Shown in pieces: positions 20,963-60,673 of a stretch of 64,000 nucleotides of DNA. The notes below the pieces were generated by a model, which saw only the letters and a program-made list of their open reading frames with translations, made no database searches and was not told the origin of the DNA. This DNA comes from Clavelina lepadiformis (taxonomy: Eukaryota > Chordata > Ascidiacea > Aplousobranchia > Clavelinidae), in assembly GCF_947623445.1 (NCBI RefSeq), contig NC_135247.1:1676501-1740500 (forward strand), given 5' to 3'. Position 1 is the first letter of the stretch, and the number at the start of each line of letters is the position of its first letter. Both the position numbers and the translations under genes were made by a program.

Positions 20963-22816
20963 TTGCTGATCAACTTCAATCGAACTTCACATTTATAAGC
21001 ACATAATATCATGGTGGGCAACCAAAATAAGGAAACAATCTGAATAAAAAAAGAAATTGATCACTTGATCGATCACTTCATTTTGAAATTGTTTGATTAA
21101 TTAGAAGCGAAGTGCAACCAGAAATTTCGTTTTTGCTCCAAAAAGTCCTTGTAAAGTGTTTGACTCAGTTTACTTATGCAAATGAACTTGTTAAGGCTGA
21201 TGCATAAAAGGAAAATGTAAAAATATAATGCACGTTGCCCATTGTTATTCAGTTTGCTAAACCAACTACGGTTTTGCAGACGAAATATTTTTTGAACATT
21301 TTCCTATTTTTTTGGCAAACAGATACAAGAAATTACACCCACATTTACAAATAGGAAAATTAGCTTCTTAGTTGCTTACGGTATAGGCTATTTTTAATTT
21401 AAAATTGAACTTGTGCTACACAAGCTTACAACAACCTAATACTTGTTAAGCTAAGATCAGGTCATTTTTATAAGGATAAAAATCTATTTGGTCATTTGCC
21501 AAGACTTAAATTATCGTATTTTGTTAAAAATTGAAAATAATTTTTATAGGCATCAAGATGTCGCAATAACAATTAAAAAGTGCTGCTTTGTTAAAAAGAA
21601 AGAATTAAAATAACTTTTACTTTTAATCGCTTCAAATGGTTACCAGCAAAAAAGGTAGCAAATAATCCCAACTAAAGGATAAAATTCGTTTTCGATCGCC
21701 CGTTTAGGCTATTGGACTCAAACGACGGACTCCAGTAGCTAATGAACATCCATAAAAAATTGGAAATTCCAAAACGCAACGATTTCCTGCTTTTATGCAG
21801 CACTAATACGACTCATGATTAGTCAGACGACAAACTCCAGTAGTTAACACCAATTCATAAAAAATTGCAAAATCTGCAACGCAACGAATTTTTATACAAA
21901 GCTGAAAAAATTGGAATAATATCGCTTTGTTAATTCACTATGACGGTTTTCCTGATCCTTCAATAATGACCTTTGTTCTTAACGCCTACATAGACCGTCG
22001 AGGGTCGAATGATTTTTTTGGTCACACCTACTACAAATGATTAATAGAGATATAGACGAGTAGAGTATGAAAGAACTTTCTACATTTGTAGATGCCGACG
22101 TTCGACGTTAAAGAGGGAGCTTGCCAGGCTGATTACTGCCGGGGGACGATCGCTTGTTCCTTCCCCTCCATCGTCATCTCCAAACACCTGGAGTTGGGTA
22201 CTCGGCTCCGGTAAAGTTTGAGAGCCAATGTGGACAACAATGCAACAGGCATGGAAGTGACATGAGGTTACATGAGAGCCGGGTTAATTTAAATCTGCTG
22301 AATAATCTCAATCTGAACATAATTTTTCTTAAAGCAAAAGAAGCTGTAATTTAAAGACGTGATGGAATGTGTTGAAACTACAAACATTTAATGCTTAGTT
22401 GTGGTCTTTGCTAATTACTGTTGTTTCTAGAAGTCTCTCAAAAGTTAGCATAAGCAGCATAAGACACACAATGGCAATTGATTAGATTCCGTTTAATATT
22501 TGATTACGAATTATTGGATACAAGCAGCACGATCAATGACAATCACCTCACAAAGAAATATAGAATGCACTTTAAACGCGGTCATAATTTTTACGAATCA
22601 TAGACAAGGTGTGAACCAGCAATTCATCGTGTACTCCACCACTACAGTAGAGATACACATTGGACTCAAAGTGCAAAACTTTCTACGCATGATTAATTTT
22701 TCGTTGACAACAATATAATATTATATCAGATAACTTTCAGTAGACATATTAAATCACACATTCGTAATATTATTGGCTACAAGAGTGCGCAATTTCCAGA
22801 TGTTGAAAAGCAGTTG

Positions 22817-23757
22817 TTATTTTTGAATTATGGTCCAGAACAAAGAAGGGCTTTCATCCCAACCGCTGGTAGTATCAGTTCGTTTAACCGTGCATTGGAA
22901 ACCACTGCTGTTAATGCTGCCCATTTGTACAGCGTATCTGTAACATTGTTAAAATAACGTGTTTCAATACAGTTTATCAATGGTCCATAGCACATGCACT
23001 TTTGGCCTGATGTCATCATTACACAATAAGAGTCACTTACGTTATCTGGCCAAAGAAATCTCCAATAACCCAAGCAAATATTTTTTTAGGTGCTGGATCT
23101 ATTGTTGATGGGAACTTGACCGTTATGTCTGCTGTGTTGGAGCTGGATTTTTCAATGACCTGAGTTCCTGAAGAAAGATTCGGATAACATATAAAACGGA
23201 ATAGTCTGACAAGCTAATCAGTTATTTATATGACTTGAACAAACGAATAAGTTGATGTGATAATAAAATTTTAGGTTTTTGTACATAACAGCTACAGCAG
23301 ACAAGGTAGTAATTTCACAAAGTAAGTTATTATAAAGGTAATTGTGCGCTTTTTAAACGTGTATTAACGAGTAAAAATCACACCAGTACCTTCTGCCGGA
23401 GGTACTTCTCTTCCTACAGCAGTCCATTCTAACTGTGGCTCTTCAGTCCATCCGTTAGTTTGGTCAGTACGAGTCACGCCAAACTTGAACTGTAAAGGGG
23501 TAATAACGACGTCTTGAACTTTGTATCTGTTAGAAATTATTGTTTGTAAACTTTATGCATTTAATGTGGCTTCTAATAGAGTTCAACGTTTCGTCAATTC
23601 TTTTCATCTATAGCTAACACCGGTCATTGTCGTTCGTACGTTCCGATGCTTCCTTGTACAGTTGCCGTCACTTGGGGTTTTGTGCCATTGTATGGGATGG
23701 GAAAACTGAAGGTCAAGTTCAAGGTATTCTTATCCGATGTAGGAAGAGACTGGGTTC
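22817..23757 (-). CDS. Two-domain H-type-lectin-like gene, copy R1 (5' exon not identified)
   Basis: Four minus-strand exons: A1 23640-23757, B1 23390-23526, A2 23041-23167, B2 22817-22937 (TAA stop at 22817-22819). All introns have GT/AG ends. A exons enter at phase 1, A/B junctions are phase 2, and B1 leaves at phase 1, so A+B is one symmetric module repeated twice (about 167 residues in all). Both modules fit one pattern: (S/D)xNT...(I/L)T(V/F)xF...P...V.G, then Y.VQ......F...V.RTD.T.GW.E.P.L.WT. The closing W, preceded by a hydrophobic strand, and the F..P..P..V opening resemble H-type lectin (galactose-binding beta-sandwich) domains. That assignment is inference from pattern only. No signal peptide is seen, so at least one 5' exon is missing. 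A possible exon at 24076-24154 has a compatible phase-1 end but a weak donor. Confidence 0.72.
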
Positions 23758-25030
23758 CTGTTGAAAACAAATTTACTTGTCAAAACCGTGTTTGCGATGA
23801 ACACAAAAATCACAACAAATCAGTTTTCATGTTTTGCAATATTTTTGCATTTAATCGTTTTCCATTAAAACAAGATAACATTAACTTGCAATATAAGCTT
23901 AATGCAAGGCAAATCGTATTCAATGTCGTTACCTCTTTGAGTGCTCATCTTGATTATTAGCAAACAAATGTATTACTTTTTAGGCAATGTAATCTGCAAA
24001 TATAGCACCGACTTATTAACAACAAAATCACGTAAACTTCAACATATTATATATAGTAAGCAAGTATAACATAACCCTTAACTTCCTGACTTGCATTACC
24101 CCAATCGCCAGTTATATCGTAAAGATAAGTCATTGCGGTGTCTTTGACACTTGTCTGATTAACCCATTTCTTAAAGGCTCAACTCTTGTCCTAAGACTCT
24201 TGATTTTTGGCCATTAACCCAGCCTCTTTATAGCCGGTCTGATCAAGCTGAAAGAAAAAGGTTCGCGTTTCCACGATTCCTATTGTTGACGACAATCCAT
24301 TTTCGTTGAGTCATACTTGCTTGCAGTGTGCATATAATTAACGGCGATGATTGTCTAAAATTATGTGTATAATTTGTTTTAATTAATGTACACCCCTTAG
24401 ATGCAATATAAGTATTCTGAGCGATGTGTATAGAAAAAAAACCGGAGATTACAATGGGTAACGTGTTGGGATGAAAGTTAATCAACTCCAGTTGATGAGT
24501 TAAGTGTGTAAGATTGACATTCATGATCATATAATTCTGGATTACTGAAAAATAAAGAGTAACTTATGGTTTCACTATAGGCTAATATTCGTGTGCAGTG
24601 TTTGTTTTTTTTCAGCGCCTATACACAAATAGGGCCGCCCTCTTGGAATGGAGCCCGACGAGGCCGCATCGCTCGCCTCAACCTGAAGCCACTACTGGGT
24701 CCAGTTGCGTGACCAGGTTTGGGGAACTTTGGTGTCTACATATAGAGAGTACAGAGAGAAGTTAGGAACTAGTCTGGAAAGGAAAATTCCAATTACAAGG
24801 TCTGAACAGAGAAAGTTGCTCAAGGAGCCCGTGCGTAGGCTACCTGGATATTAACTTGAACAATAGCCTAGTGTCGCAGTGGGCTACTGTATATGCTAAC
24901 TCGATTCAAAAAATCGGAAATTCGACGTACCAACCAACACACTTATCTGTTAAATTTTAGTTATGTAGTTGTTTGTAGATAAGTGGTTGAAGAATAACCC
25001 AATGAAAACTCTGAAAAATCTGATAATAAT

Positions 25031-26533
25031 CTGACAAATCCTGGCTCACTTTGCTGCAGCATAAAAGTAGGAAATCGTTGCGTTGCAGAATTCCCAATTT
25101 TCTATGGATGTGTATTAACTACTGGAATTCATTGTCTGACTAATCCTGGCTCACTTTGCTGCAGCATAAAAGTAGGAAATCGTTGTGTTGCAGAATTCCC
25201 AATTTTCAATGGGTGTGTATTAACTACTGGAATTCATTTTCTGAATAATCCTGGCTCACTTTGGTGCTGCATAAAAGTAGGAAATCGTTGTATTGCAGAA
25301 TTCCCAATTTTCTATGGATGTGTATTAACTACTGGAATTCATTGTCTGACTAATCCTGGCTCACTTTGGTGCTGCATAAAAGTGGGAAATCGTTGTATTG
25401 CAGAATTCCCAATTTTCTATGGATGTGTATTAACTACTGGAATTCATTGTCTGACTAATCCTGGATCACTTTGCTGCAGCATGAAAGTAGGAAATCGTTG
25501 CGTTGCAGAATTCCCAATTTTATATGGATGTGTATTAACTACTGGAATTCATTGTCTGACTAATCCTGGCTCAATTTGCTGCAGCATGAAAGTAGGAAAT
25601 CGTTGCGTTGCAGAATTCCCAATTTTATATGGATGTGTATTAACTACTGGAATTCATTGTCTGACTAATCCTGGCTCAATTTGCTGCAGCATAAAAGTAG
25701 GAAATCGTTGTGTTGCAGAATTCCCAATTTTCTATGAATGTGTATTAACTACTGGAATTCATTGTCTGACTAATCCTGGCTCACTTTGCTGCAGCATAAA
25801 AGTAGGAAATCGTTGCGTTACACAATTCCCAATTTTCTATGAATGTGTAGGCCTATTAACTACTGGAATTCATTGTCTGACTAATCCTGGCTCACTTTGC
25901 TGCAGCATAAAAGTAGGAAATCGTTGTGTTGCAGAATTTCCAATTTTCTATGAATGTGTATTAACTACTGGAATTCATTGTCTGACTAATCCTGGCTCAA
26001 TTTGCTGCAGCATAAAAGTGGGAAATCGTTGTGTTGCAGAATTCCCAATTTTCTATGAATGTGTATTAACTACTGGAATTCATTGTCTGACTAATCCTGG
26101 CTCAATTTGATTCTGCGTAAAAGTAGGAAATCGTTGCGTTGCAGAATTCCCAATTTTCTATGAATGTGTATTAACTACTGGAATTCATTGTCTGACTAAT
26201 CCTGGTTCACTTTGCTGCAGCATAAAAGTAGGAAATCGTTGTATTGCAGAATTCCCAATTTTCTATGAATGCGTATTAACTACTGGAATTCATTGTCTGA
26301 CTAATCCTGGCTAACTTTGCTGTAGCATAAAAGTAGGAAATCGTTGCGTTGCAAAATTCCCAACTTTCTATGGATGTGTATTAACTACTGGAATTCATCG
26401 TTTGACTAATCCTGGCTCACTTTGCTGCAGCATAAAAGTAGGAAATCGTTGCGTTGCAGAATTCCCAATTTTCTATGAATGTGTATTAATTATTGGAATT
26501 CATCGTCTGGCTAATTCTGGTTCACTTTGGTGA
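25031..26533 (+). repeat. 105-bp repeat array in R1 (about 14 copies)
   Basis: Tandem 105-bp units with landmarks GGAAATCGTTG, GAATTCCCAATTTTCTATG, ACTACTGGAATTCATTG and CTTTGCTGCAGCATAAAAG. Because 105 is divisible by 3, one + frame stays open over several units (35 residues per unit with five Cys, core VGNRC.AEFPIFYECVLT). Stops break it in several units, and no start or splice context supports a protein. One unit near 25,850 has a 6-bp AGGCCT insertion. The array lies between the gene and the promoter-like block of its unit. Confidence 0.93.
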
Positions 26534-27049
26534 TGTATTGATTTTAGCCGAACACCATAATTGCCATAAATATTTCACCCGAAAATGTATCTATAATTCA
26601 ACTTTTACATTATTCGCTTAATAGACATTAGTTGTTACCTTCTTTCTGTTGCCGATATCAAGTGATAAAAATTGAAAATTATTTTAATTGTTTTCTTTGG
26701 ACGCAGTGACATTTTTCAATTAATATTGTGACATTTTATTAGTTTTTAATTTCACTTTTTTATTTTAAGCAAAATATGTCAATGAATTCCTCACGATTGA
26801 CCAAATAGATTTCTAGACAATGAGCAGCAACGTCATTGTACAGCATTTTAGAGCAAAGCCTGCAACTATGACTTCGACCTGACTTTTGAATTGTTCACCG
26901 CTCAGAACTTGTCTGAAATTTGTCAGAATGCATATAAGAGTAGTAATCTATAATTTATTGTCCAAAAATTGTGGTAGCGTTGTCTAATTGTAACAAAATG
27001 AGTACCTGTAAAATATTTTACCTGCATTTTCTAGGACCTGAAGTTCATT

Positions 27050-27361
27050 TGTCATCACACTTTCCGACAACGCATTTTTCGCGCATGCGCACAACGGATG
27101 GCGCAAAAGGTCTACTGAACGTTACAATTATGCCAAAACAAAGACCTTTTGAATTAAACGCAGTGGTAAACTTTCCAGTTCTGATTAACCGTCAGCGAAA
27201 AGCACAGAAACAATGCCACTTCCGATGTCGTTATGGCGTTATCGTTATGACGTCAGCATGTAGTTGAAACGCGTAAATACGTTGGCGGTACGAAGAAGCG
27301 GAAGATAAACGTCAAACTATCAGCGGTTCAACTAAGTACCTATTTATATATAGAAAGGAAC
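27050..27361. promoter_or_regulatory. Promoter-like block at the R1/R2 boundary
   Basis: Several binding-site matches cluster here: an NRF1-type palindrome GCGCATGCGC at 27081-27090, an ETS-type ACTTCCG at 27218-27224, a perfect CRE TGACGTCA at 27248-27255, a second ETS-type CGGAAG at 27299-27304, and a TATA element at 27341-27350. The TATA reads TATATAAATA on the minus strand, toward the R1 gene, and TATATATAG on the plus strand, so direction is ambiguous. The sites are seen; promoter function is inferred. Confidence 0.42.
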
Positions 27362-28974: not shown

Positions 28975-29915
28975 TTATTTTTGAATTATGGTCCAGAACA
29001 AAGAAGGGCTTTCATCCCAACCGCTGGCAGTATCAGTTCGTTTAACCGTGCATTGGAAACCACTGCTATTAATGCTGCCCATTTGTACAGCGTATCTGTA
29101 ACATTGTTAAAACAACGTGTTTCAATACAGTTTATCAACGGTCCAAAGCACATGCACTTTTGGCCTGATGTCATCATTACACAATAAGAGTCACTTACGT
29201 TATCTGGCTAAAGAAATCTCCAATAACCCAAGCAAATATTTTTTTAGGTGCTGGATCTATTGTTGATGGGAACTTGACCGTTATGTCCGCTGTGTTGGAG
29301 CTGGATTTTTCAATGACCTGAGTTCCTGAAGAAAGATTCGGATAACATATAAAACGGAATAGTCTGACAAGCTAATCAGTTATTTATATGACTTGAACAA
29401 ACGAATAAGTTGATGTGATAATAAAGTTTTAGGTTTTTGTACATAACACCTACAGCAGACAAGGTAGTAATTTCACAAAGTAAGTTATTATAAAGGTAAT
29501 TGTGCGCTTTTTAAACGTGTATTAACGAGTAAAAATCACACCAGTACCTTCTGCCGGAGGTACTTCTCTTCCTACAGCAGTCCATTCTAACTGTGGCTCT
29601 TCAGTCCATCCGTTAGTTTGGTCAGTACGAGTCACGCCAAACTTGAACTGTAAAGGGGTAATAACGACGTCTTGAACTTTGTAGCTGTTAGAAATTATTA
29701 TTTGTAAACTTTATGCATTTAATGTGGCTTCTAATAGAGTTCAACGTTTCGTCAATTCTTTTCATCTATAGCTAACACCGGTCATTGTCGTTCGTACGTT
29801 CCGATGCTTCCTTGTACAGTTGCCGTCACTTGGGGTTTTGTGCCATTGTATGGGATGGGAAAACTGAAGGTCAAGTTCAAGGTATTCTTATCCGATGTAG
29901 GAAGAGACTGGGTTC
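28975..29915 (-). CDS. Two-domain H-type-lectin-like gene, copy R2
   Basis: Exons A1 29798-29915, B1 29548-29684, A2 29199-29325, B2 28975-29095. All splice sites and the stop are kept. Differences from R1: FSQIT instead of FGQIT at the end of A2, Thr to Ala in RTDTASGW of B2, and a silent change at the first base of B1 (ACA to ACC across the junction). Confidence 0.72.
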
Positions 29916-31187
29916 CTGTTGAAAACAAATTTACTTGTCAAAACCGTGTTTGCGATTAACACAAAAATCACAACAAATCAGTTTTCATGTTTTGCAATAT
30001 TTTTGCATTTAATCGTTTTCCATTATAACAAGATAATATTAACTTGCAATATAAGCTTAATGCAAGGCAAATCGTATTCAATTTCGTTACCTCTTTGAGT
30101 ACTCATCTTGATTATTAGCAAACAAATGTATTACTTTTCGGGCAATGTAATCTGCAAATATAATACCAACTTTTAACAACAAAATCACGTAAACTTCAAC
30201 ATATTATATATAGTAAGCAAGTATAACATAACCCTTAACTTCCTGACTTGCATTACCCCAATCGCCAGTTATATCGTAAAGATAAGTCATTGCGGTGTCT
30301 TTGACACTTGTCTGATTAACCCATTTCTTAAAGGCTCAACTCTTGTCCTAAGACTCTTGATTTTTGGCCATTAACCCAGCCTCTTTATAGCCGGTCTGAT
30401 CAAGCTGAAAGAAAAAGGTTCGCGTTTCCACGATTCCTATTGTTGACGACAATCCATTTTCGTTGAGTCATACTTGCTTGCAGTGTGCATATAATTAACG
30501 GCGATGATTGTCTAAAATTATGTGTATAATTTGTTTTAATTAATGTACACCCCTTAGATGCAATATAAGTATTCTGAGCGATGTGTATAGAAAAAAAACC
30601 GGAGATTACAATGGGTAACGTGTTGGGATGAAAGTTAATCAACTCCAGTTGATGAGTTAAGTGTGTAAGATTGACATTCATGATCATATAATTCTGGATT
30701 ATTGAAAAATAAAGAGTAACTTATGGCTTCACTATAGGCTAATATTCGTGTGCAGTGTTTGTTTTTTTTCAGCGCCTATACACAAATAGGGCCGCCCTCT
30801 TGGAATGGAGCCCGACGAGGCCGCATCGCTCGCCTCAACCTGAAGCCACTACTGGGTCCAGTTGCGTGACCAGGTTTGGGGAACTTTGGTGTCTACATAT
30901 AGAGAGTACAGAGAGAAGTTAGGAACTAGTCTGGAAAGGAAAATTCCAATTACAAGGTCTGAACAGAGAAAGTTGCTCAAGGAGCCCGTGCGTAGGCTAC
31001 CTGGATATTAACTTGAACAATAGCCTAGTGTCGCAGTGGGCTACTGTATATGCTAACTCGATTCAAATAATCGGAAATTCGACGTTCCAACCAACACACT
31101 TATCTGTTAAATTTTAGTTATGTAGTTGTTTGTAGATAAGTGGTTGAAGAATAACCCAATGAAAACTCTGAAAAATCTGATAATAAT

Positions 31188-35023: not shown

Positions 35024-35964
35024 TTATTTTTGAATTATGGTCCAGAACAAAGAAGGGCTTTCATCCCAACCGCTGGTAGTATCAGTTCGTTTAACCGTGC
35101 ATTGGAAACCACTGCTATTAATGCTGCCCATTTGTACAGCGTATCTGTAACATTGTTAAAACAACGTGTTTCAATACAGTTTATCAACGGTCCAAAGCAC
35201 ATGCACTTTTGGCCTGATGTCATCATTACACAATAAGAGTCACTTACGTTATCTGGCTAAAGAAATCTCCAATAACCCAAGCAAATATTTTTTTAGGTGC
35301 TGGATCTATTGTTGATGGGAACTTGACCGTTATGTCTGCTGTGTTGGAGCTGGATTTTTCAATGACCTGAGTTCCTGAAGAAAGATTCGGATAACATATA
35401 AAACGGAATAGTCTGACAAGCTAATCAGTTATTTATATGACTTGAACAAACGAATAAGTTGATGTGATAATAAAGTTTTAGGTTTTTGTACATAACAGCT
35501 ACAGCAGACAAGGTAGTAATTTCACAAAGTAAGTTATTATAAAGGTAATTGTGCGCTTTTTAAACGTGTATTGACGAGTAAAAATCACACCAGTACCTTC
35601 TGCCGGAGGTACTTCTCTTCCTACAGCAGTCCATTCTAACTGTGGCTCTTCAGTCCATCCGTTAGTTTGGTCAGTACGAGTCACGCCAAACTTGAACTGT
35701 AAAGGGGTAATAACGACGTCTTGAACTTTGTAGCTGTTAGAAATTATTATTTGTAAACTTTATGCATTTAATGTGGCTTCTAATAGAGTTCAACGTTTCG
35801 TCAATTCTTTTCATCTATAGCTAACACCGGTCATTGTCGTTCGTACGTTCCGATGCTTCCTTGTACAGTTGCCGTCACTTGGGGTTTTGTGCCATTGTAT
35901 GGGATGGGAAAACTGAAGGTCAAGTTCAAGGTATTCTTATCCGATGTAGGAAGAGACTGGGTTC
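35024..35964 (-). CDS. Two-domain H-type-lectin-like gene, copy R3
   Basis: Exons A1 35847-35964, B1 35597-35733, A2 35248-35374, B2 35024-35144. FSQIT-type A2; B2 keeps RTDTTSGW. Open, with intact GT/AG sites. Confidence 0.72.
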
Positions 35965-37221
35965 CTGTTGAAAACAAATTTACTTGTCAAAACCGTGTTT
36001 GCGATGAACACAAAAATCACAACAAATCAGTTTTCATGTTTTGCAATATTTTTGCATTTAATCGTTTTCCATTATAACAAGATAATATTAACTTGCAATA
36101 TAAGCTTAATGCAAGGCAAATCGTATTCAATTTCGTTACCTCTTTGAGTGCTCATCTTGATTATTAGCAAACAAATGTATTACTTTTTAGGCAATGTAAT
36201 CTGCAAATATAGCACCGACTTATTAACAACAAAATCACGTAAACTTCAACATATTATATATAGTAAGCAAGTATAACATAACCCTTAACTTCCTGACTTG
36301 CATTACCCCAATCGCCAGTTATATCGTAAAGATAAGTCATTGCGGTGTCTTTGACACTTGTCTGATTTTTCCGTGTCTTAAAGGCTCAACTCTTGTCCTA
36401 AGACTCTTGATTTTTGGCCATTAACCCAGCCTCTTTATAGCCGGTCTGATCAAGCTGAAAGAAAAAGTTTTGCGTTTCCACGATTCCTATTGTTGACGAC
36501 AATCCATTTTCGTTGAGTCATACTTGCTTGCAGTGTGCATATAATTAACGGCGATGATTGTCTAAAATTATGTGTATAATTTGTTTTAATTAACCTACAC
36601 ACTTTAGATGCAATATAAGTATTCTGAGCGATGTGAGGAGAAAAACAAACCGGAGATTACAATGAGTAACGTGTTGGGGTGAAGAGTAATCAACTCCAAT
36701 TGATGAGTAAAGTGTGTAAGCTTGACATTATTAATCATATAATTCTGGATTATTGCAAAACAAAGAGTATGGCTTCACTATAGGCTAATATTCGTGTGCA
36801 AGGTTTGTTTTTTTTTACAGCGCGTACACACAAATACCTCTTGGAGGGGAGCCCGTCGCGGCCGCATCACTCGCCTCAACCTAAAGCCACTAAGGGGTTC
36901 AGTGGCGTGGCCAGGGTTGGGGAACTTTGGTGTCTACATATAGAGAGTACAGAGAGAAGTTGGGAACCAGTCTAGAAAGGAAAATTCCAATTTCAGGGTA
37001 TGAGCACAGAAAGTTGCTTAAGGGGCCGTGCGTACTTTGATATTCCCTGAGCAATAGCATAGTGTCGCAGTGGGCTACTGTATATACTAAGTCGATTCAA
37101 ATAATCGCGAGTTCGACGTTCCAACCAACACACTTATCTGTTAAACTTTAGTTATGCAGTATTTTGTTAATACGTGGTTGAAGAATAACCCAATGAAAAC
37201 TCTGAAAAATCTGATAATAAT

Positions 37222-40211: not shown

Positions 40212-41152
40212 TTATTTTTGAATTATGGTCCAGAACAAAGAAGGGCTTTCATCCCAACCGCTGGTAGTATCAGTTCGTTTAACCGTGCATTGAAAACCAC
40301 TGCTGTTAATGCTGCCCATTTGTACAGCGTATCTGTAACATTGTTAAAATAACGTGTTTCAATACAGTTTATCAATGGTCCATAGCACATGCACTTTTGG
40401 CCTGATGTCATCATTACACAATAAGAGTCACTTACGTTATCTGGCCAAAGAAATCTCCAATAACCCAAGCAAATATTTTTTTAGGTGCTGGATCTATTGT
40501 TGATGGGAACTTGACCGTTATGTCTGCTGTGTTGGAGCTGGATTTTTCAATGACCTGAGTTCCTGAAGAAAGATTCGGATAACATATAAAACGGAATAGT
40601 CTGACAAGCTAATCAGTTATTTATATGACTTGAACAAACGAATAAGTTGATGTGATAATAAAGTTTTAGGTTTTTGTACATAACAGCTACAGCAGACAAG
40701 GTAGTAATTTCACAAAGTAAGTTATTATAAAGGTAATTGTGCGCTTTTTAAACGTGTATTAACGAGTAAAAATCACACCAGTACCTTCTGCCGGAGGTAC
40801 TTCTCTTCCTACAGCAGTCCATTCTAACTGTGGCTCTTCAGTCCATCCGTTAGTTTGGTCAGTACGAGTCACGCCAAACTTGAACTGTAAAGGGGTAATA
40901 ACGACGTCTTGAACTTTGTATCTGTTAGAAATTATTGTTTGTAAACTTTATGCATTTAATGTGGCTTCTAATAGAGTTCAACGTTTCGTCAATTCTTTTC
41001 ATCTATAGCTAACACCGGTCATTGTCGTTCGTACGTTCCGATGCTTCCTTGTACAGTTGCCGTCACTTGGGGTTTTGTGCCATTGTATGGGATGGGAAAA
41101 CTGAAGGTCAAGTTCAAGGTATTCTTATCCGATGTAGGAAGAGACTGGGTTC
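40212..41152 (-). CDS. Two-domain H-type-lectin-like gene, copy R4
   Basis: Exons A1 41035-41152, B1 40785-40921, A2 40436-40562, B2 40212-40332. FGQIT-type A2 like R1 and R6. One base change in B2 (GGTTTCCAA to GGTTTTCAA) is silent. Confidence 0.72.
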
Positions 41153-42429
41153 CTGTTGAAAACAAATTTAATTGTCAAAACCGTGTTTGCGATGAGCACA
41201 AAAATCAAAACAAATCAGTTTTCATGTTGTGCAATATTTTTGCATTTAATCGTTTTCCATTATAACAAGATAATAGGCTATTGACTTGCAATATAAGCTT
41301 AATGCAAGGCAAATCGTATTCAATTTCGTTACCTCTTTGAGTGCTCATGTTGATTATTAGCAAACAAATGTATTACTTTTCGGGCAATGTAATCTGCAAA
41401 TATAATACCAACTTTTAACAACAAAATCACGTAAACTTCAACATATTATATATAGTAAGCAAGTATAACATAACCCTTAACTTCCTGACTTGCATTACCC
41501 CAATCGCCAGTTATATCGTAAAGATAAGTCATTGCGGTGTCTTTGACACTTGTCTGATTATTCCGTGTCTTAAAGGCTCAACTCTTGTCCTAAGACTCTT
41601 GATTTTTGGCCATTAACCCAGCCTCTTTATAGCCGGTCTGATCAAGCTGAAAGAAAAAGGTTCGCGTTTCCACGATTCCTATTGTTGACGACAATCCATT
41701 TTCGTTGAGTCATACTTGCTTGCAGTGTGCATACAATTAACGGCGATGATTGTCTAAAATTATGTGTATAATTTGTTTTAATTAATGTACACCCCTTAGA
41801 TGCAATATAAGTATTCTGAGCGATGTGTATAGAAAAAAAACCGGAGATTACAATGGGTAACGTGTTGGGATGAAAGTTAATCAACTCCAGTTGATGAGTT
41901 AAGTGTGTAAGATTGACATTCATGATCATATAATTCTGGATTATTGAAAACTAAAGAGTAACTTATGGCTTCACTATAGGCTAATATTCGTGTGCAGTGT
42001 TTGTTTTTTTTCAGCGCCTATACACAAATAGGGCCGCCCTCTTGGAATGGAGCCCGACGAGGCCGCATCGCTCGCCTCAACCTGAAGCCACTACTGGGTC
42101 CAGTTGCGTGACCAGGTTTGGGGAACTTTGGTGTCTACATATAGAGAGTACAGAGAGAAGTTAGGAACTAGTCTGGAAAGGAAAATTCCAATTACAAGGT
42201 CTGAACAGAGAAAGTTGCTCAAGGAGCCCGTGCGTAGGCTACCTGGATATTAACTTGAACAATAGCCTAGTGTCGCAGTGGGCTACTGTATATGCTAACT
42301 CGATTCAAATAATCGGAAATTCGACGTTCCAACCAACACACTTATCTGTTAAATTTTAGTTATGTAGTTGTTTGTAGATAAGTGGTTGAAGAATAACCCA
42401 ATGAAAACTCTGAAAAATCTGATAATAAT

Positions 42430-46265: not shown

Positions 46266-47206
46266 TTATTTTTGAATTATGGTCCAGAACAAAGAAGGGC
46301 TTTCATCCCAACCGCTGGTAGTATCAGTTCGTTTAACCGTGCATTGGAAACCACTGCTATTAATGCTGCCCATTTGTACAGCGTATCTGTAACATTGTTA
46401 AAACAACGTGTTTCAATACAGTTTATCAACGGTCCAAAGCACATGCACTTTTGGCCTGATGTCATCATTACACAATAAGAGTCACTTACGTTATCTGGCT
46501 AAAGAAATCTCCAATAACCCAAGCAAATATTTTTTTAGGTGCTGGATCTATTGTTGATGGGAACTTGACCGTTATGTCTGCTGTGTTGGAGCTGGATTTT
46601 TCAATGACCTGAGTTCCTGAAGAAAGATTCGGATAACATATAAAACGGAATAGTCTGACAAGCTAATCAGTTATTTATATGACTTGAACAAACGAATAAG
46701 TTGATGTGATAATAAAGTTTTAGGTTTTTGTACATAACAGCTACAGCAGACAAGGTAGTAATTTCACAAAGTAAGTTATTATAAAGGTAATTGTGCGCTT
46801 TTTAAACGTGTATTGACGAGTAAAAATCACACCAGTACCTTCTGCCGGAGGTACTTCTCTTCCTACAGCAGTCCATTCTAACTGTGGCTCTTCAGTCCAT
46901 CCGTTAGTTTGGTCAGTACGAGTCACGCCAAACTTGAACTGTAAAGGGGTAATAACGACGTCTTGAACTTTGTAGCTGTTAGAAATTATTATTTGTAAAC
47001 TTTATGCATTTAATGTGGCTTCTAATAGAGTTCAACGTTTCGTCAATTCTTTTCATCTATAGCTAACACCGGTCATTGTCGTTCGTACGTTCCGATGCTT
47101 CCTTGTACAGTTGCCGTCACTTGGGGTTTTGTGCCATTGTATGGGATGGGAAAACTGAAGGTCAAGTTCAAGGTATTCTTATCCGATGTAGGAAGAGACT
47201 GGGTTC
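46266..47206 (-). CDS. Two-domain H-type-lectin-like gene, copy R5
   Basis: Exons A1 47089-47206, B1 46839-46975, A2 46490-46616, B2 46266-46386. Matches R3 at +11,242 bp. Confidence 0.72.
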
Positions 47207-48463
47207 CTGTTGAAAACAAATTTACTTGTCAAAACCGTGTTTGCGATGAACACAAAAATCACAACAAATCAGTTTTCATGTTTTGCAATATTTTTGCATT
47301 TAATCGTTTTCCATTATAACAAGATAATATTAACTTGCAATATAAGCTTAATGCAAGGCAAATCGTATTCAATTTCGTTACCTCTTTGAGTGCTCATCTT
47401 GATTATTAGCAAACAAATGTATTACTTTTTAGGCAATGTAATCTGCAAATATAGCACCGACTTATTAACAACAAAATCACGTAAACTTCAACATATTATA
47501 TATAGTAAGCAAGTATAACATAACCCTTAACTTCCTGACTTGCATTACCCCAATCGCCAGTTATATCGTAAAGATAAGTCATTGCGGTGTCTTTGACACT
47601 TGTCTGATTTTTCCGTGTCTTAAAGGCTCAACTCTTGTCCTAAGACTCTTGATTTTTGGCCATTAACCCAGCCTCTTTATAGCCGGTCTGATCAAGCTGA
47701 AAGAAAAAGTTTTGCGTTTCCACGATTCCTATTGTTGACGACAATCCATTTTCGTTGAGTCATACTTGCTTGCAGTGTGCATATAATTAACGGCGATGAT
47801 TGTCTAAAATTATGTGTATAATTTGTTTTAATTAACCTACACACTTTAGATGCAATATAAGTATTCTGAGCGATGTGAGGAGAAAAACAAACCGGAGATT
47901 ACAATGAGTAACGTGTTGGGGTGAAGAGTAATCAACTCCAATTGATGAGTAAAGTGTGTAAGCTTGACATTATTAATCATATAATTCTGGATTATTGCAA
48001 AACAAAGAGTATGGCTTCACTATAGGCTAATATTCGTGTGCAAGGTTTGTTTTTTTTTACAGCGCGTACACACAAATACCTCTTGGAGGGGAGCCCGTCG
48101 CGGCCGCATCACTCGCCTCAACCTAAAGCCACTAAGGGGTTCAGTGGCGTGGCCAGGGTTGGGGAACTTTGGTGTCTACATATAGAGAGTACAGAGAGAA
48201 GTTGGGAACCAGTCTAGAAAGGAAAATTCCAATTTCAGGGTATGAGCACAGAAAGTTGCTTAAGGGGCCGTGCGTACTTTGATATTCCCTGAGCAATAGC
48301 ATAGTGTCGCAGTGGGCTACTGTATATACTAAGTCGATTCAAATAATCGCGAGTTCGACGTTCCAACCAACACACTTATCTGTTAAACTTTAGTTATGCA
48401 GTATTTTGTTAATACGTGGTTGAAGAATAACCCAATGAAAACTCTGAAAAATCTGATAATAAT

Positions 48464-49531: not shown

Positions 49532-49842
49532 TGTCATCACACTTTCCGACAACGCATTTTTCGCGCATGCGCACAACGGATGGCGCAAAAGGTCTACTGA
49601 ACGTTACAATTATGCCAAAACAAAGACCTTTTGAATTAAACGCAGTGGTAAACTTTCCAGTTCTGATTAACCGTCAGCGAAGAGCACAGAAACAATGCCA
49701 CTTCCGATGTCGTTATGGCGTTATTGTTATGACGTCAGCATGTAGTTGAAACGCGTAAATACGTTGGCGGTACGAAGAAGCGGAAGATAAACGTCAAACT
49801 ATCAGCGGTCAACTAAGTACCTATTTATATATAGAAAGGAAC
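49532..49842. promoter_or_regulatory. Promoter-like block at the R5/R6 boundary
   Basis: Same element order; CRE from 49730. Confidence 0.4.
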
Positions 49843-51453: not shown

Positions 51454-52394
51454 TTATTTTTGAATTATGGTCCAGAACAAAGAAGGGCTTTCATCCCAAC
51501 CGCTGGTAGTATCAGTTCGTTTAACCGTGCATTGAAAACCACTGCTGTTAATGCTGCCCATTTGTACAGCGTATCTGTAACATTGTTAAAATAACGTGTT
51601 TCAATACAGTTTATCAATGGTCCATAGCACATGCACTTTTGGCCTGATGTCATCATTACACAATAAGAGTCACTTACGTTATCTGGCCAAAGAAATCTCC
51701 AATAACCCAAGCAAATATTTTTTTAGGTGCTGGATCTATTGTTGATGGGAACTTGACCGTTATGTCTGCTGTGTTGGAGCTGGATTTTTCAATGACCTGA
51801 GTTCCTGAAGAAAGATTCGGATAACATATAAAACGGAATAGTCTGACAAGCTAATCAGTTATTTATATGACTTGAACAAACGAATAAGTTGATGTGATAA
51901 TAAAGTTTTAGGTTTTTGTACATAACAGCTACAGCAGACAAGGTAGTAATTTCACAAAGTAAGTTATTATAAAGGTAATTGTGCGCTTTTTAAACGTGTA
52001 TTAACGAGTAAAAATCACACCAGTACCTTCTGCCGGAGGTACTTCTCTTCCTACAGCAGTCCATTCTAACTGTGGCTCTTCAGTCCATCCGTTAGTTTGG
52101 TCAGTACGAGTCACGCCAAACTTGAACTGTAAAGGGGTAATAACGACGTCTTGAACTTTGTATCTGTTAGAAATTATTGTTTGTAAACTTTATGCATTTA
52201 ATGTGGCTTCTAATAGAGTTCAACGTTTCGTCAATTCTTTTCATCTATAGCTAACACCGGTCATTGTCGTTCGTACGTTCCGATGCTTCCTTGTACAGTT
52301 GCCGTCACTTGGGGTTTTGTGCCATTGTATGGGATGGGAAAACTGAAGGTCAAGTTCAAGGTATTCTTATCCGATGTAGGAAGAGACTGGGTTC
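51454..52394 (-). CDS. Two-domain H-type-lectin-like gene, copy R6
   Basis: Exons A1 52277-52394, B1 52027-52163, A2 51678-51804, B2 51454-51574. Matches R4 at +11,242 bp, including the silent B2 change. Confidence 0.72.
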
Positions 52395-53671
52395 CTGTTG
52401 AAAACAAATTTAATTGTCAAAACCGTGTTTGCGATGAGCACAAAAATCAAAACAAATCAGTTTTCATGTTGTGCAATATTTTTGCATTTAATCGTTTTCC
52501 ATTATAACAAGATAATAGGCTATTGACTTGCAATATAAGCTTAATGCAAGGCAAATCGTGTTCAATTTCGTTACCTCTTTGAGTGCTCATGTTGATTATT
52601 AGCAAACAAATGTATTACTTTTCGGGCAATGTAATCTGCAAATATAATACCAACTTCTAACAACAAAATCACGTAAACTTCAACATATTATATATAGTAA
52701 GCAAGTATAACATAACCCTTAACTTCCTGACTTGCATTACCCCAATCGCCAGTTATATCGTAAAGATAAGTCATTGCGGTGTCTTTGACACTTGTCTGAT
52801 TATTCCGTGTCTTAAAGGCTCAACTCTTGTCCTAAGACTCTTGATTTTTGGCCATTAACCCAGCCTCTTTATAGCCGGTCTGATCAAGCTGAAAGAAAAA
52901 GGTTCGCGTTTCCACGATTCCTATTGTTGACGACAATCCATTTTCGTTGAGTCATACTTGCTTGCAGTGTGCATACAATTAACGGCGATGATTGTCTAAA
53001 ATTATGTGTATAATTTGTTTTAATTAATGTACACCCCTTAGATGCAATATAAGTATTCTGAGCGATGTGTATAGAAAAAAAACCGGAGATTACAATGGGT
53101 AACGTGTTGGGATGAAAGTTAATCAACTCCAGTTGATGAGTTAAGTGTGTAAGATTGACATTCATGATCATATAATTCTGGATTATTGAAAACTAAAGAG
53201 TAACTTATGGCTTCACTATAGGCTAATATTCGTGTGCAGTGTTTGTTTTTTTTCAGCGCCTATACACAAATAGGGCCGCCCTCTTGGAATGGAGCCCGAC
53301 GAGGCCGCATCGCTCGCCTCAACCTGAAGCCACTACTGGGTCCAGTTGCGTGACCAGGTTTGGGGAACTTTGGTGTCTACATATAGAGAGTACAGAGAGA
53401 AGTTAGGAACTAGTCTGGAAAGGAAAATTCCAATTACAAGGTCTGAACAGAGAAAGTTGCTCAAGGAGCCCGTGCGTAGGCTACCTGGATATTAACTTGA
53501 ACAATAGCCTAGTGTCGCAGTGGGCTACTGTATATGCTAACTCGATTCAAATAATCGGAAATTCGACGTTCCAACCAACACACTTATCTGTTAAATTTTA
53601 GTTATGTAGTTGTTTGTAGATAAGTGGTTGAAGAATAACCCAATGAAAACTCTGAAAAATCTGATAATAAT

Positions 53672-54747
53672 CTGACAAATCCTGGCTCACTTTGCTGCAG
53701 CATAAAAGTAGGAAATCGTTGTGTTGCAGAATTCCCAATTTTCTATGGATGTGTATTAACTACTGGAATTCATTGTCTGACTAATCCTGGCTCACTTTGC
53801 TGCAGCATAAAAGTAGGAAATCGTTGTGTTGCAGAATTCCCAATTTTCAATGGGTGTGTATTAACTACTGGAATTCATTTTCTGAATAATCCTGGCTCAC
53901 TTTGGTGCTGCATAAAAGTAGGAAATCGTTGTATTGCAGAATTCCCAATTTTCTATGGATGTGTATTAACTACTGGAATTCATTGTCTGACTAATCCTGG
54001 CTCACTTTGGTGCTGCATAAAAGTAGGAAATCGTTGTATTGCAGAATTCTCAATTTTCTATAGATGTGTATTAACTACTGGAATTCATTGTCTGACTAAT
54101 CCTGGATCACTTTGCTGCAGCATGAAAGTAGGAAATCGTTGCGTTGCAGAAATCCCAATTTTATATGGATGTGTATTAACTACTGGAATTCATTGTCTGA
54201 CTAATCCTGGCTCAATTTGCTGCAGCATAAAAGTGGGAAATCGTTGTGTTGCAGAATTCCCAATTTTCTATGAATGTGTATTAACTACTGGAATTCATTG
54301 TCTGACTAATCCTGGCTCAATTTGATTCTGCGTAAAAGTAGGAAATCGTTGCGTTGCAGATTTCCCAATTTTCTATGAATGTGTATTAACTACTGGAATT
54401 CATTGTCTGACTAATCCTGGTTCACTTTGCTGCAGCATAAAAGTAGGAAATCGTTGTATTGCAGGATTCCCAATTTTCTATGAATGCGTATTAACTACTG
54501 GAATTCATTGTCTGACTAATCCTGGTTCACTTTGCTGTAGCATAAAAGTAGGAAATCGTTGCGTTGCAAAATTCCCAACTTTCTATGGATGTGTATTAAC
54601 TACTGGAATTCATCGTCTGACTAATCCTGGCTCACTTTGCTGCAGCATAAAAGTAGGAAATCGTTGCGTTGCAGAATTCTCAATTTTCTATGAATGTGTA
54701 TTAATTATTGGAATTCATCGTCTGGCTAATTCTGGTTCACTTTGGTG
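53672..54747 (+). repeat. 105-bp repeat array in R6 (about 10 copies)
   Basis: Starts like R4 but lacks the AGGCCT copy and has its own order of variants. Confidence 0.93.
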
Positions 54748-55265
54748 ATGTATTGATTTTAGCCGAACACCATAATTGCCATAATTATTTCACCCGAAAA
54801 TGTATCTATAATTCAACTTTTACATTATTCGCTTAATAGACATTAGTTGTTACCTTCTTTCTGTTGCCGATATCAAGTGATAAAAATTGAAAATTATTTT
54901 AATTGTTTTCTTTGGACGCAGTGACATTTTTCAATTAATATTGTGACATTTTATTAGTTTTTAATTTCACTTTTTTATTTTAAGCAAAATATGTCAATGA
55001 ATTCCTCACGATTGACCAAATAGATTTCTAGACAATGAGCAGCAACGTCATTGTACAGCATTTTAGAGCAAAGCCTGCAACTATGACTTCGACCTGACTT
55101 TTGAATTGTTCACCGCTCAGAACTTGTCTGAAATTTGTCAGAATGCATATAAGAGTAGTAATCTATAATTTATTGTCCAAAAATTGTGGTAGCGTTGTCT
55201 AATTGTAACAAAATGAGTACCTGTAAATGATTTTACCTGCATTTTCTAGGACATGAAGTTCATTT

Positions 55266-55576
55266 GTCATCACACTTTCCGACAACGCATTTTTCGCGCA
55301 TGCGCACAACGGATGGCGCAAAAGGTCTACTGAACGTTACAATTATGCCAAAACAAAGACCTTTTGAATTAAACGCAGTGGTAAACTTTCCAGTTCTGAT
55401 TAACCGTCAGCGAAGAGCACAGAAACAATGCCACTTCCGATGTCGTTATGGCGTTATCGTTATGACGTCAGCATGTAGTTGAAACGCGTAAATACGTTGG
55501 CGGTACGAAGAAGCGGAAGATAAACGTCAAACTATCAGCGGTTCAACTAAGTACCTATTTATATATAGAAAGGAAC
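55266..55576. promoter_or_regulatory. Promoter-like block at the R6/R7 boundary
   Basis: Same element order; CRE from 55463. Confidence 0.4.
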
Positions 55577-57189
55577 ATGTAAAAATATAATGCACGTTGT
55601 CCTTTGTTATTCAGTCTGCTAAATCAACTACGGTTTTGCAGACAAAATGTTTTTAGAACATTTTCCTATGTAGTTGGCAAACCGATACAAGAATTTACTT
55701 TCACATTTACAAGTAAGAAAATTAGCCTCTGAGTTGTTTACGGTAAAGGCTATTTTTAATTTAAAATTGAAGTTGTACTAAACAGGCTTACAATAGTCTA
55801 ACCCTTGTTAAACTAAGATCAGGTGATTTTTGTAAGGATAGAAATCTATTTGGTCATTTGCCAAGGCTTAGATTATCGTATTTTGCTTAAAATACGAAAA
55901 TAAGTTTTATAGGCATCAAGATGTCGCAATAACAATTAAAAATTGCTGCTTGGTTTTAAAAAAAAAGAATTAAAATAAGCTTTATTTTTGATCGCTTGCA
56001 ATGGGTAACAGCAAAAAAGGTAGCAAATAATCCCAACTAAGCGATAATATTGGTTTTGGATCGCCCGTTTAGGCTATTGGACTCAAACGGCGGACTCCAG
56101 TAGCTAATGAACATCCATAAAAAATTGGAAATTCCAAAACGCAACGATTTTCTGCTTTTATGCAGCACTAATACGACTCATGATTAGTCAGCCGACAAAC
56201 TCCAGTAGTTGATATCAATTCATAAAAAATTGCAAATTCTGCAAAACAACGACTTTTTATACAAAGCTGAAAATGTGGAAAAATATCGCTTTGTTAAGTC
56301 ACTATGATGGTTTTCCTGACCCTTCAATAATGACCTTTGTTCTTAACGTCTACATAGACTCCAGAGACCTTCGAGAGTCGAATGATTTTTTTTGGTAACA
56401 CCTACTACAAATGATTAATAGAGATATAGTCGGGTAGAGTATGAAATAACTTTCTACAATTGTAGATGCCGACGTTCGACGTTAAAGAGGGAGCTTGCCA
56501 GGCTGACTACTGCCGGGAACGATTGCTTGTTCCTTCCCCTCCATCGTCATCTCCAAACACCTGGAGTTGGGTACTCGGCTCGGGTAAAGTTTGAGAGCCA
56601 ATGTGGACAACAATGCAACAGGCATGGAAGTGACATGAGGTTATATGAGAGCCGGGTTAATTTAAATCTGCTGAATAATCTCAATCTGAGCATAATTTTT
56701 CTTAAAGCAAAAGAAGCTGTAATTTAAAGACGTGATGGAATGTGTTGAAACTACAAACATTTAATGCTTAGTTGTGGTCTTTGCTAATTACTGTTGTTTC
56801 TAGAAGTCTCTCAAAAGTTATCATAAGCAGCATAAGACACACAATAGCAATTGAATAGATTCCGTTTAATATTTGATTTTGAATTATTGGATACAAGCAG
56901 CACGATCAATGACAATCATCTCACAAAGAAACGTAGAATTCACTTTAAACACGGTCATAATTTTTACGAATCATAGACAAGGTGTGAACCAGCAATTCAT
57001 CGTGTACTCCACCACTACAGTAGAGATACACATTGGACTCAAAGTGCAAAACTTTCTACGCATGATTAATTTTTCGTTGACAACAATATAATATTATATA
57101 AGATAACTTTCAGTAGACATATTAAATCACACATTCGTAATATTATTGGCTACAAGAGTGCGCAATTTCCAGATGTTGAAAAGCAGTTG

Positions 57190-58130
57190 TTATTTTTGAA
57201 TTATGGTCCAGAACAAAGAAGGGCTTTCATCCCAACCGCTGGTAGTATCAGTTCGTTTAACCGTGCATTGGAAACCACTGCTATTAATGCTGCCCATTTG
57301 TACAGCGTATCTGTAACATTGTTAAAACAACGTGTTTCAATACAGTTTATCAACGGTCCAAAGCACATGCACTTTTGGCCTGATGTCATCATTACACAAT
57401 AAGAGTCACTTACGTTATCTGGCTAAAGAAATCTCCAATAACCCAAGCAAATATTTTTTTAGGTGCTGGATCTATTGTTGATGGGAACTTGACCGTTATG
57501 TCCGCTGTGTTGGAGCTGGATTTTTCAATGACCTGAGTTCCTGAAGAAAGATTCGGATAACATATAAAACGGAATAGTCTGACAAGCTAATCAGTTATTT
57601 ATATGACTTGAACAAACGAATAAGTTGATGTGATAATAAAGTTTTAGGTTTTTGTACATAACAGCTACAGCAGACAAGGTAGTAATTTCACAAAGTAAGT
57701 TATTATAAAGGTAATTGTGCGCTTTTTAAACGTGTATTAACGAGTAAAAATCACACCAGTACCTTCTGCCGGAGGTACTTCTCTTCCTACAGCAGTCCAT
57801 TCTAACTGTGGCTCTTCAGTCCATCCGTTAGTTTGGTCAGTACGAGTCACGCCAAACTTGAACTGTAAAGGGGTAATAACGACGTCTTGAACTTTGTAGC
57901 TGTTAGAAATTATTATTTGTAAACTTTATGCATTTAATGTGGCTTCTAATAGAGTTCAACGTTTCGTCAATTCTTTTCATCTATAGCTAACACCGGTCAT
58001 TGTCGTTCGTACGTTCCGATGCTTCCTTGTACAGTTGCCGTCACTTGGGGTTTTGTGCCATTGTATGGGATGGGAAAACTGAAGGTCAAGTTCAAGGTAT
58101 TCTTATCCGATGTAGGAAGAGACTGGGTTC
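57190..58130 (-). CDS. Two-domain H-type-lectin-like gene, copy R7
   Basis: Exons A1 58013-58130, B1 57763-57899, A2 57414-57540, B2 57190-57310. FSQIT-type A2. This is the array copy nearest to the divergent plus-strand paralogue. Confidence 0.72.
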
Positions 58131-59387
58131 CTGTTGAAAACAAATTTACTTGTCAAAACCGTGTTTGCGATGAGCACAAAAATCAAAACAAATCAGTTTT
58201 CATGTTTTGCAATATTTTTGCATTTAATCGTTTTCCATTATAACAAGATAACATTAACTTGCAATATAAGCTTAATGCAAGGCAAATCTTGTTCAATTTC
58301 GTTACCTCTTTGAGTGCTCATCTTGATTATTAGCAAACAAATGTATTACTTTTTAGGCAATGTAATCTGCAAATATAGCATCGACTTATTAACAACGAAA
58401 TCACGTAAATTTCAACATATTATATATAGTAAGCAAGTATAACATAACCCTTAACTTCCTGATTTGCATTACCCCAATCGCCAGTTATATCGTAAAGATA
58501 AGTCATTGCGGTGTCTTTGACACTTGTCTGATTATTCCGTGTCCTAAAGGCTCAACTCTTGTCCTAAGACTCTTGATGTTTGGCCATTGACCCAGCCTCT
58601 TTATAGTCGGTCTGATCAAGCTGAAAGAAAAAGGTCCGCGTTTCCACGATTCCTATTGTTGACGACAATCCATTTTCGTTGAGTCATACTTGCTTGCAGT
58701 GTGCATATAATTAACGGCGATGATTGTCTAAAATTATGTGTATAATTTGTTTTAATTAACCTACACACTTTAGATGCAATATAAGTATTCTGAGCGATGT
58801 GTGGAGAAAAACAAACCGGAGATTACAATGGGTAACGTGCAGGGGTGAAGGGTAATCAACTCCAATTGATGAATAAAGCGTGTAAGCTTGATATTATTAA
58901 TCATATAATTCTGGATTATTGCAAAACAAAGAGTATGGCTTCACTATAGGCTAATATTCGTGTGCAAGGTTTGTTTTTTTTTACAGCGCGTACACACAAA
59001 TACCTCTTGGAGGGGAGCCCGTCGCGGCCGCATCACTCGCCTCAACCTAAAGCCACTACGGGGTTCAGTGGCGTGGCCAGGGTTGGGGAACTTTGGTGTC
59101 TACATATAGAGAGTACAGAGAGAAGTTAGGAACCAGTCTTGAAAGAAAATTCCAATTTCAGGGTCTGAGCACAGAAAGTTGCTTAAGGAGCCGTGCGTAC
59201 TTTGATATTCCCTGAGCAATAGCATAGTGATGCAGTGGGCTACTGTATATGCTAAGTCGATTCAAATAATCGCGAGTTCGACGTTCCAACCAACACACTT
59301 ATCTGTTAAACTTTAGTTATGCAGTATTTTGTTAATACGTGGTTGAAGAATAACTCAATGAAAAATTCTGAAAAATCTGATAATAAT

Positions 59388-59725
59388 CTGACTAATCCTG
59401 GCTCCTTTTGGTGCAGCATGAAAGTAGGAAATCGTTGCGTTGCAGAATTCCCAATTTTCTATGAATGTGTATTAACTACTGGAATTCATTGTCTGACTAA
59501 TCCTGGCTCACTTTGCTGCAGCATAAAAGTAGGAAATCGTTGCGTTGCAGAATTCCCAATTTTCTATGAATGTGTATTAACTACTGGAATTCATTGTCTG
59601 ACTAATCCTGGCTCAATTTGCTGCAGCATAAAACTAGGAAATCGTTGCGTTGCAGAATTCCCAATTTTCTATGAATGTGTATTAACTACTGGAATTCATT
59701 GTCTGTCTAATCATGGATTACTTTA
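59388..59725 (+). repeat. 105-bp repeat array in R7 (about 3 copies)
   Basis: The smallest array. The final copy is diverged (GTCTAATCATGGATTACTTTAG). Confidence 0.9.
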
Positions 59726-60000
59726 GTTGTGTATTTATTTTAGCCAAACACCATAATTGCCATAATTGTATCACCTGGAAATGTGTCTTTAATTCACTTT
59801 TATCTTTCGCTTAGTAGAGACTATTTGTTACCTTCTTTCTATTGCCGATTTCAAGGGATAAATTGGAAAATTATTTTAATAATGTTCTTTGGACGAAGTG
59901 ACATTTTTCAATTGTTATCGCCACATTTTATTAGCTTTAAATTTCACTTTTTTATTTTAAGCAAAATATGTGAATGAAGTCTCCACGATTGACGAAAAAG

Positions 60001-60092
60001 ATTTTTATTCTTATAAAATTGACCTAATCTCAGCTTAACAAGGGTTAGGTTATTGCAAGCCTGTTTAGCGCAATTTCAAATTAAAAAAAAAA
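60001..60092 (-). repeat. Inverted fragment of the lectin-array unit inside R7
   Basis: This is the reverse complement of the unit segment seen at about 21,395-21,485 in R1 and 27,530-27,620 in R2 (landmarks CTTAACAAGGGTTAG, GCAAGCCTGTTTAG). It replaces ordinary unit sequence, so the right edge of the array has been rearranged. Confidence 0.7.
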
Positions 60093-60379
60093 CAACACCA
60101 ACGATATGATGAAAGATGTTTGGAAATCCCGTGGAATTACAGCATGCTTTCACCTGAGTTCTACGCAGGAAACAATGTGCAGCATTTTATGGGCAACGCC
60201 TGCATTTTTGACTTCGGCCTGACTTTTGAATTGTTCACCACTCAGAACTTGTCCGACATTAGTCGGAATGCATATACGAGTCGTGATCTATAATTTGTTG
60301 TCAAAAAATGGTGGTGACGTTGTCTAAAAGTAACAAACAGAGTGCCTGTAAAAACTTGTAAACTTGAATCTCATTTGTG

Positions 60380-60673
60380 AGCACACTTTCTGACAAAGCA
60401 TTTTTCGCGCACGCGCACAACGGATGGCGCATAAGTTTTATTGAACGTTTCGAATATGACAAAACAAAGGCCTTTTGAATTAAACGCAGCGGTAAACTTT
60501 CCAGTTCTGATAAATCATTAGTGAAGAGCACAGAACCAATACCACTTCCGATGTCGTTATGACGTCAGCATGTAGTTGGAACGCGTAAATACGTTGGTGG
60601 TACGAAGAAGCGGAAGGGATACGTCAAACGCTCAGCAGTTCAACTAAGTACCGATTATACAGTATATAGAAAG
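60380..60673. promoter_or_regulatory. Diverged promoter-like block at the right end of R7
   Basis: The CRE (from 60560), ACTTCCG and CGGAAG survive although the surrounding sequence has changed. The NRF1 palindrome is reduced to CACGCGCAC. The TATA region now reads TATACAGTATATAG. In the + direction it points at the plus-strand paralogue about 0.9 kb away. Confidence 0.38.

Follow-up and report, generated by a model that had tools for sequence, protein, structure and literature searches.

H-type lectins (PF09458), which include the Helix pomatia agglutinin and lectins of snails, slugs and rotifers, work as oligomers; their domain is a six-stranded antiparallel β-sandwich that trimerizes, and the residues that bind N-acetylgalactosamine (GalNAc) or galactose (Gal) lie at the subunit interface. 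The discoidins lack a signal peptide and combine an N-terminal discoidin domain with one H-type domain. Galectins also lack a signal peptide and leave the cell by a non-classical route or on damage. In excerpts of PMC8878817, rotifer H-type lectins are described as a single domain directly after the signal peptide, and H-type lectins are described as not forming expanded families in molluscs or brachiopods. Excerpts of PMC3269628 describe the conger eel galectins (congerins I and II) as defence lectins whose accelerated coding evolution altered their sugar specificity. No H-type lectin named from a tunicate was found in the literature searched. Described here is an array of seven genes, predicted to encode a two-module H-type-lectin-like protein, in 64,000 nucleotides of chromosome 8 of the ascidian Clavelina lepadiformis (assembly kaClaLepa1.1, C8:1676501–1740500; hereafter the window, with positions counted from its first base).

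The explanation favoured here, with somewhat better than even confidence, is that the array encodes a leaderless tandem-domain H-type-like lectin whose gene, after diverging under selection, was amplified in intact copies, probably with a role in defence. The modules of the family resemble H-type lectins in length and match approximately 50–58 of the 67 profile positions, with four of ten paralogue modules passing the Pfam cut-off; the differences are that the array modules themselves fall under this cut-off, that there are two modules per chain, that no signal peptide is evident and that the family has a C-terminal R.D...GW..P.L.W motif. Dictyostelium discoidins I and II provide the best, though weak, PDB sequence match of one module and differ in having a discoidin domain and one H-type domain where the Clavelina protein has two H-type-like modules. 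The congerins may be the nearest functional parallel (defence and fast coding change), although they belong to another fold and family and are one-domain prototype galectins. What would be new is a leaderless, two-module H-type-lectin-like protein in a tunicate; the H-type lectin class itself is known.

Structure of the array and its gene model

The seven genes all lie on the minus strand between window positions 22817 and 58321, at a spacing of ~5.2–6.2 kb, and have five exons apiece (E1–E5). E1 is 16 nt long, E2 and E4 are A exons and E3 and E5 are B exons, and the phases are fixed. Each copy is defined by exon similarity, GT/AG sites and an open 172-residue frame:

Array gene copy 1: 57190–58321, minus strand; E1 58306–58321, E2 58013–58130, E3 57763–57899, E4 57414–57540, E5 57190–57310
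Array gene copy 2: 51454–52590, minus strand; E1 52575–52590, E2 52277–52394, E3 52027–52163, E4 51678–51804, E5 51454–51574
Array gene copy 3: 46266–47397, minus strand; E1 47382–47397, E2 47089–47206, E3 46839–46975, E4 46490–46616, E5 46266–46386
Array gene copy 4: 40212–41348, minus strand; E1 41333–41348, E2 41035–41152, E3 40785–40921, E4 40436–40562, E5 40212–40332
Array gene copy 5: 35024–36155, minus strand; E1 36140–36155, E2 35847–35964, E3 35597–35733, E4 35248–35374, E5 35024–35144
Array gene copy 6: 28975–30106, minus strand; E1 30091–30106, E2 29798–29915, E3 29548–29684, E4 29199–29325, E5 28975–29095
Array gene copy 7: 22817–23948, minus strand; E1 23933–23948, E2 23640–23757, E3 23390–23526, E4 23041–23167, E5 22817–22937
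Long repeats bearing the array genes: 21204–59724, no strand assigned; self-matches of more than 1500 nt only

An AG acceptor precedes all 28 A1-B1-A2-B2 exons of the seven copies, a GT donor follows all 21 that need one, and the reading frames are open in every copy and end at a common stop. The predicted protein has 172 residues (18.9 kDa, pI 5.4), begins MSTQR-G and comprises two modules of ~83 residues. Seven codons vary among the copies in 519 coding bases, five silently and two with a change of residue; variable columns number 7/519 in exons, 18/613 in introns, 93/1000 nt upstream and 95/1500 nt downstream. Self-matches of more than 1500 nt within the window are 93.9–99.2% identical, and a 17.5-kb stretch is repeated at an offset of ~11.24 kb, equal to two units, with 99.2% identity. 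The first-pass annotation had proposed a seven-copy A1-B1-A2-B2 array in register that encodes near-identical proteins, and both points are borne out by the splice sites, the open frames and the mere two residue differences among the copies. The end of its proposed extent (21215–60673) lies ~1 kb too far, since the long self-matches stop at 59724.

The array is best read as a set of recent duplicates of one gene, and the mutual agreement of its copies is therefore by itself no proof of a gene. The predicted gene model is backed independently by a paralogue on the opposite strand, which has the same five-exon plan with a longer C-terminal tail and shows coding constraint:

Plus-strand two-module paralogue: 61452–63033, plus strand; E1 61452–61467 (MTSEC/G, the slash here and below marking the exon junction), E2 61588–61702, E3 61878–62014, E4 62553–62676, E5 62796–63033; GT/AG sites and an open 209-residue frame

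The ratio of nonsynonymous to synonymous substitution rates (dN/dS) between array copy 6 and this paralogue is 0.29, which differs from 1 at p = 3 × 10−8.

A 105-bp minisatellite lies between array genes at window positions 24903–26678, with similar sequence in other units. Its plus strand has an open frame of up to 370 codons that repeats every 35 residues, probably a chance product of the 105-bp unit.

Relationship of the modules to H-type lectins

Alignment of 22 modules of the family shows that Ser8, Pro28, Arg59, Gly65, Trp66 and Pro70 are invariant and that Phe19, Gly36, Phe53, Asp61 and Trp74 are nearly so, the C-terminal motif lying beyond most of the H_lectin match. Twelve of the 22 modules match Pfam H_lectin at E ≤ 1. 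Among ten modules chosen from the 22 and scanned singly, eight match and four, from four loci, pass the curated cut-off of 24 bits (32.3, 31.7, 29.7 and 29.4 bits). These four include the second module of L038_2, a neighbour that shares the leaderless two-module plan of the array and scores 28.2 bits as a whole protein; the plus-strand paralogue scores 21.8 bits, under the cut-off. The array modules count as members of the family because of their exon identity to such neighbours, which over E2–E5 is 67, 66, 63 and 79% with L038_1 and 69, 61, 74 and 84% with the intact neighbour L039_1. The assignment of the modules as putative divergent H-type lectin domains is thus supported by way of the paralogues that pass the Pfam cut-off. 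The earlier suggestion of a two-domain H-type-lectin relative stands as to architecture and, through the paralogue modules, as to kinship, but not for the array protein taken alone, which is under the cut-off.

By sequence, one module aligns best in the PDB with discoidin-2 residues 178–237, a weak match (E = 0.098). A profile that includes this discoidin-2 fragment reaches discoidin-1 at E = 2.6 × 10−5, which is not an independent test, and the discoidin alignments stop at profile positions 62–66. PDB sequence searches with the full array protein returned nothing at E ≤ 10, those with the 22-module profile returned only two phage capsid chains (E = 1) and those with nine modules returned 21 chance-level matches, headed by TetR at E = 0.11. 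In Pfam, array module 1 weakly matches Gp53-like_C (PF21882), a phage tail-fibre C-terminal domain, at 21.9 bits against a cut-off of 24.9 bits, and module 2 has no match; Gp53-like_C matches seven of the 22 family modules at E ≤ 1. Matches in PHROGs are weak and scattered (best E = 0.0059). Evidence of a phage or bacterial origin, prompted by Gp53-like_C, was sought without success. None of 266 pattern matches in genome contigs (L031 module query) and none of four in viral contigs (array module 1 query) was confirmed, in searches that reach close relatives only, and tblastn of both array modules against 50,697 phage records gave no match.

The start exon and the wider family

The start exon of the array genes, placed by conservation, is 16 nt long (ATG..AG/GT, encoding MSTQR/G). 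A 16-nt start exon precedes E2 at the same phase, in frame and with GT/AG sites, in five of the six other neighbouring paralogues examined (MSTQN, MSPQT, MNAQS, MTSEQ and MTSEC), the sixth, a damaged minus-strand copy in L038, being without one; the scan also gave other ATG-to-GT candidates, of which the 16-nt exon is the shared one. L041 has a 16-nt candidate as well (MATQE), although such a frame is frequent by chance and carries little weight alone. The N-terminus of the array protein is polar (MSTQR/GTQSL...), with a maximum 11-residue mean hydropathy of 0.80 in the first 40 residues, and scans upstream of E2 show no signal-peptide-like exon over 1000 nt in copy 6 or 800 nt in L038_1. Weak candidates occur 4544–4877 nt upstream of E2 in copy 6, just beyond the stop of the preceding gene, and others occur upstream of E2 in L039_1 (a hydrophobic candidate at 321 nt) and L041 (913–958 nt); on shuffling, 22% of 1000-nt stretches contain a chance candidate. 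The array protein would accordingly be termed leaderless under this conservation-based model of the 5′ exon and, since no signal peptide is evident, its description as secreted in the first-pass annotation is unsupported; the part in immunity or self-recognition suggested there is an inference.

Two further features lie upstream of the start codon: an acceptor-like TTGCAG/ATTA at 45 nt (e.g. window position 30151, minus strand) in copies 6 and 7 and in neighbours, and a TATAAAGAGG box at ~280 nt. They may mark either an intron in the 5′ untranslated region or a spliced-leader site. In L044 and L045, EQSG, read by eye, stands directly before the module and resembles the MTSEQ/G start of leaderless genes, perhaps as an uninterrupted ancestral start.

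A six-frame search of the genome with the array protein gave 104 exon-level matches at E ≤ 10, including 60 at E ≤ 0.001, and a second search with an L031 module gave 80 at E ≤ 0.1; these counts are lower bounds. The matches cluster around the window at C8:1.70–1.78 Mb and at C8:2.02–2.04, C8:16.47–16.68, C4:5.41, C4:17.44, C6:5.76 and C7:18.65 Mb. A search of the whole genome for the motif as a DNA pattern gave no match, the pattern probably being too strict. The seven-copy array sits within a large genomic family, and the first-pass view of an amplified family is supported. Most of the stretches inspected show A exons alternating with B exons (L033 has a B exon only), and L040 (C8:16653000–16662999) carries 11 consecutive A-B pairs on one strand, with most borders splice-like by eye; these pairs may belong to several genes or to a single one for a long, secreted multi-lectin protein. 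Located ~90 nt before the first L040 module is a candidate signal-peptide exon, MKFRQAILTCLWLAVLQCSS/G, with a junction of the same phase, the rate of chance candidates in 400 nt being 0.083 on shuffling; a second, less likely start is found 475 nt upstream. Seven distant loci were scanned over the 700 nt that precede their first visible module: a convincing signal-peptide-like exon is present in L040, a weak one in L046 and none in the other five, although in several the true first module may be further upstream. The idea that distant relatives are generally secreted finds no support in this count of one convincing case in seven.

Two neighbours within L038 (C8:1746000–1755999) are damaged: the first B exon of the minus-strand copy (7717 down to 6791) is interrupted by an in-frame stop, as is the second A exon of the plus-strand copy (9075–9777), whose first module was not located. 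Window positions 1–19811 hold nine tandem units of ~2.1–2.4 kb, whose long self-matches show 98.8–100% identity. Every unit contains four tRNA-Ser(CGA)-like genes (36 in total by ARAGORN, with which Rfam agrees), and the units may represent either densely clustered tRNA-Ser genes or a repeat derived from a tRNA.

Selection, proposed function and alternatives

The family is under purifying constraint at long range, and exons outpace introns between an array gene and its two nearest paralogues. With gap columns dropped and the flanks, which are mostly not alignable, left out, copy 6 differs from its nearest paralogue L039_1 at 81/519 exon positions (15.6%) and 50/606 intron positions (8.3%; p = 1.7 × 10−4), and from L038_1 at 89/519 and 63/609 (p = 1.2 × 10−3); exons are the faster in two of the three close paralogue pairs tested. 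The dN/dS comparison proposed in the first-pass annotation gave, besides the 0.29 with the plus-strand paralogue, a ratio of 2.17 for copy 6 and L039_1 (p = 0.020, exact splicing); that for copy 6 and L039_2 is 0.47. In a tree of seven sequences, dN/dS along the array stem is 4.50, 4.25 and 6.75 under three topologies (greater than 1 at p = 0.0037, 0.0051 and 0.0028), the order of the three recent branches being poorly supported (FastTree 0.288). Among the other single branches, L039_1 (1.65–1.93) and L038_1 (1.04–1.09) do not differ from 1 and L039_2 (0.28–0.30) is below it, while a four-branch set of the recent clade gives 1.55 (p = 0.085). The codon models were run with a custom script.

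Several results weigh against a selected H-type-like lectin. Neither array module singly matches H_lectin at E ≤ 1 and the whole array protein scores 9.8 bits; searching the whole genome with the H_lectin profile gives seven exon-level matches, none over the cut-off, because introns split the domain. The pair L038_1 and L039_1 shows no excess of exon change (65/519 and 64/606, p = 0.30; dN/dS 0.98), and for copy 6 and L038_1 the codon test does not reach significance (dN/dS 1.66, p = 0.083). The array stem is one of four branches tested, so that its p-values become 0.011–0.02 when multiplied by four, and site models yield no positively selected codon class (M2a versus M1a, p = 0.77). Gene conversion among the paralogues could also distort the exon/intron and codon tests by shifting exons and introns differently, although the introns sit between the fast exons.

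Under the favoured explanation, the array would have arisen by the recent multiplication of a single member of a large modular H-type-lectin-like family. Each module would fold into a small glycan-binding β-sandwich, and the fusion of two in one chain would give every oligomer twice as many sites and hence high avidity. With no signal peptide, the protein should be cytosolic, perhaps in blood, tunic or epithelial cells, and should leave by a non-classical route or upon cell damage, as leaderless galectins do, after which it may agglutinate or mark microbes. The binding surface of the array progenitor would have been altered by positive selection, and the progenitor then multiplied for dosage with its copies kept alike.

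The modules could instead have kept the H-type fold and lost sugar binding, the product being an intracellular, structural or storage protein and the array serving dosage. The leaderless start, the array modules that fall under the H_lectin cut-off, the family-specific C-terminal motif and seven intact copies suggestive of dosage are all consistent with this, but rapid coding evolution like that of the array stem is, as a general rule, seen more often in recognition surfaces than in structural proteins, and such a loss of binding is considered unlikely, if deserving of some weight. Fast change in a clustered multigene family would suit self/non-self or gamete recognition in a colonial ascidian, and colonial ascidians have allorecognition; the near-identity of the seven copies is nevertheless the opposite of what a polymorphic recognition locus requires, which makes this role very improbable.

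A similarly low probability attaches to the proposal that the array proteins are secreted, in which case the signal peptide would reside in the true 5′ exon and the 16-nt exon would be either untranslated or a minor variant. The same-phase candidate in the distant multi-module L040 and those upstream of E2 in L039_1, L041 and, more weakly, copy 6 speak for it; against it stand the empty stretches upstream of E2 in copy 6 and L038_1, the recurrence of the 16-nt exon with similar residues in five of six neighbours and the frequency of chance candidates. It is scarcely credible that the seven copies were produced by misassembly or are pseudogenes: there are damaged genes among the neighbours (L038), but PMC10884593 gives a HiFi assembly with a quality value (QV) of 67.4, the long self-matches differ by 0.8–6.1%, and frames and splice sites are intact in all seven copies.

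A bolder version of the leaderless lectin, itself quite unlikely, is that in the Clavelina lineage a signal-peptide exon was replaced by the 16-nt start exon at the same phase-1 junction, creating a tandem-domain, non-classically released lectin that served as a fast-evolving recognition system, one version of which positive selection reshaped before it was copied into an array of uniform genes. Such a start-exon switch, if real, would offer a simple genetic way for a secreted lectin to become cytosolic, and a large family of modular proteins in an animal closely related to vertebrates would broaden a lectin class that is best known from snails and amoebae.

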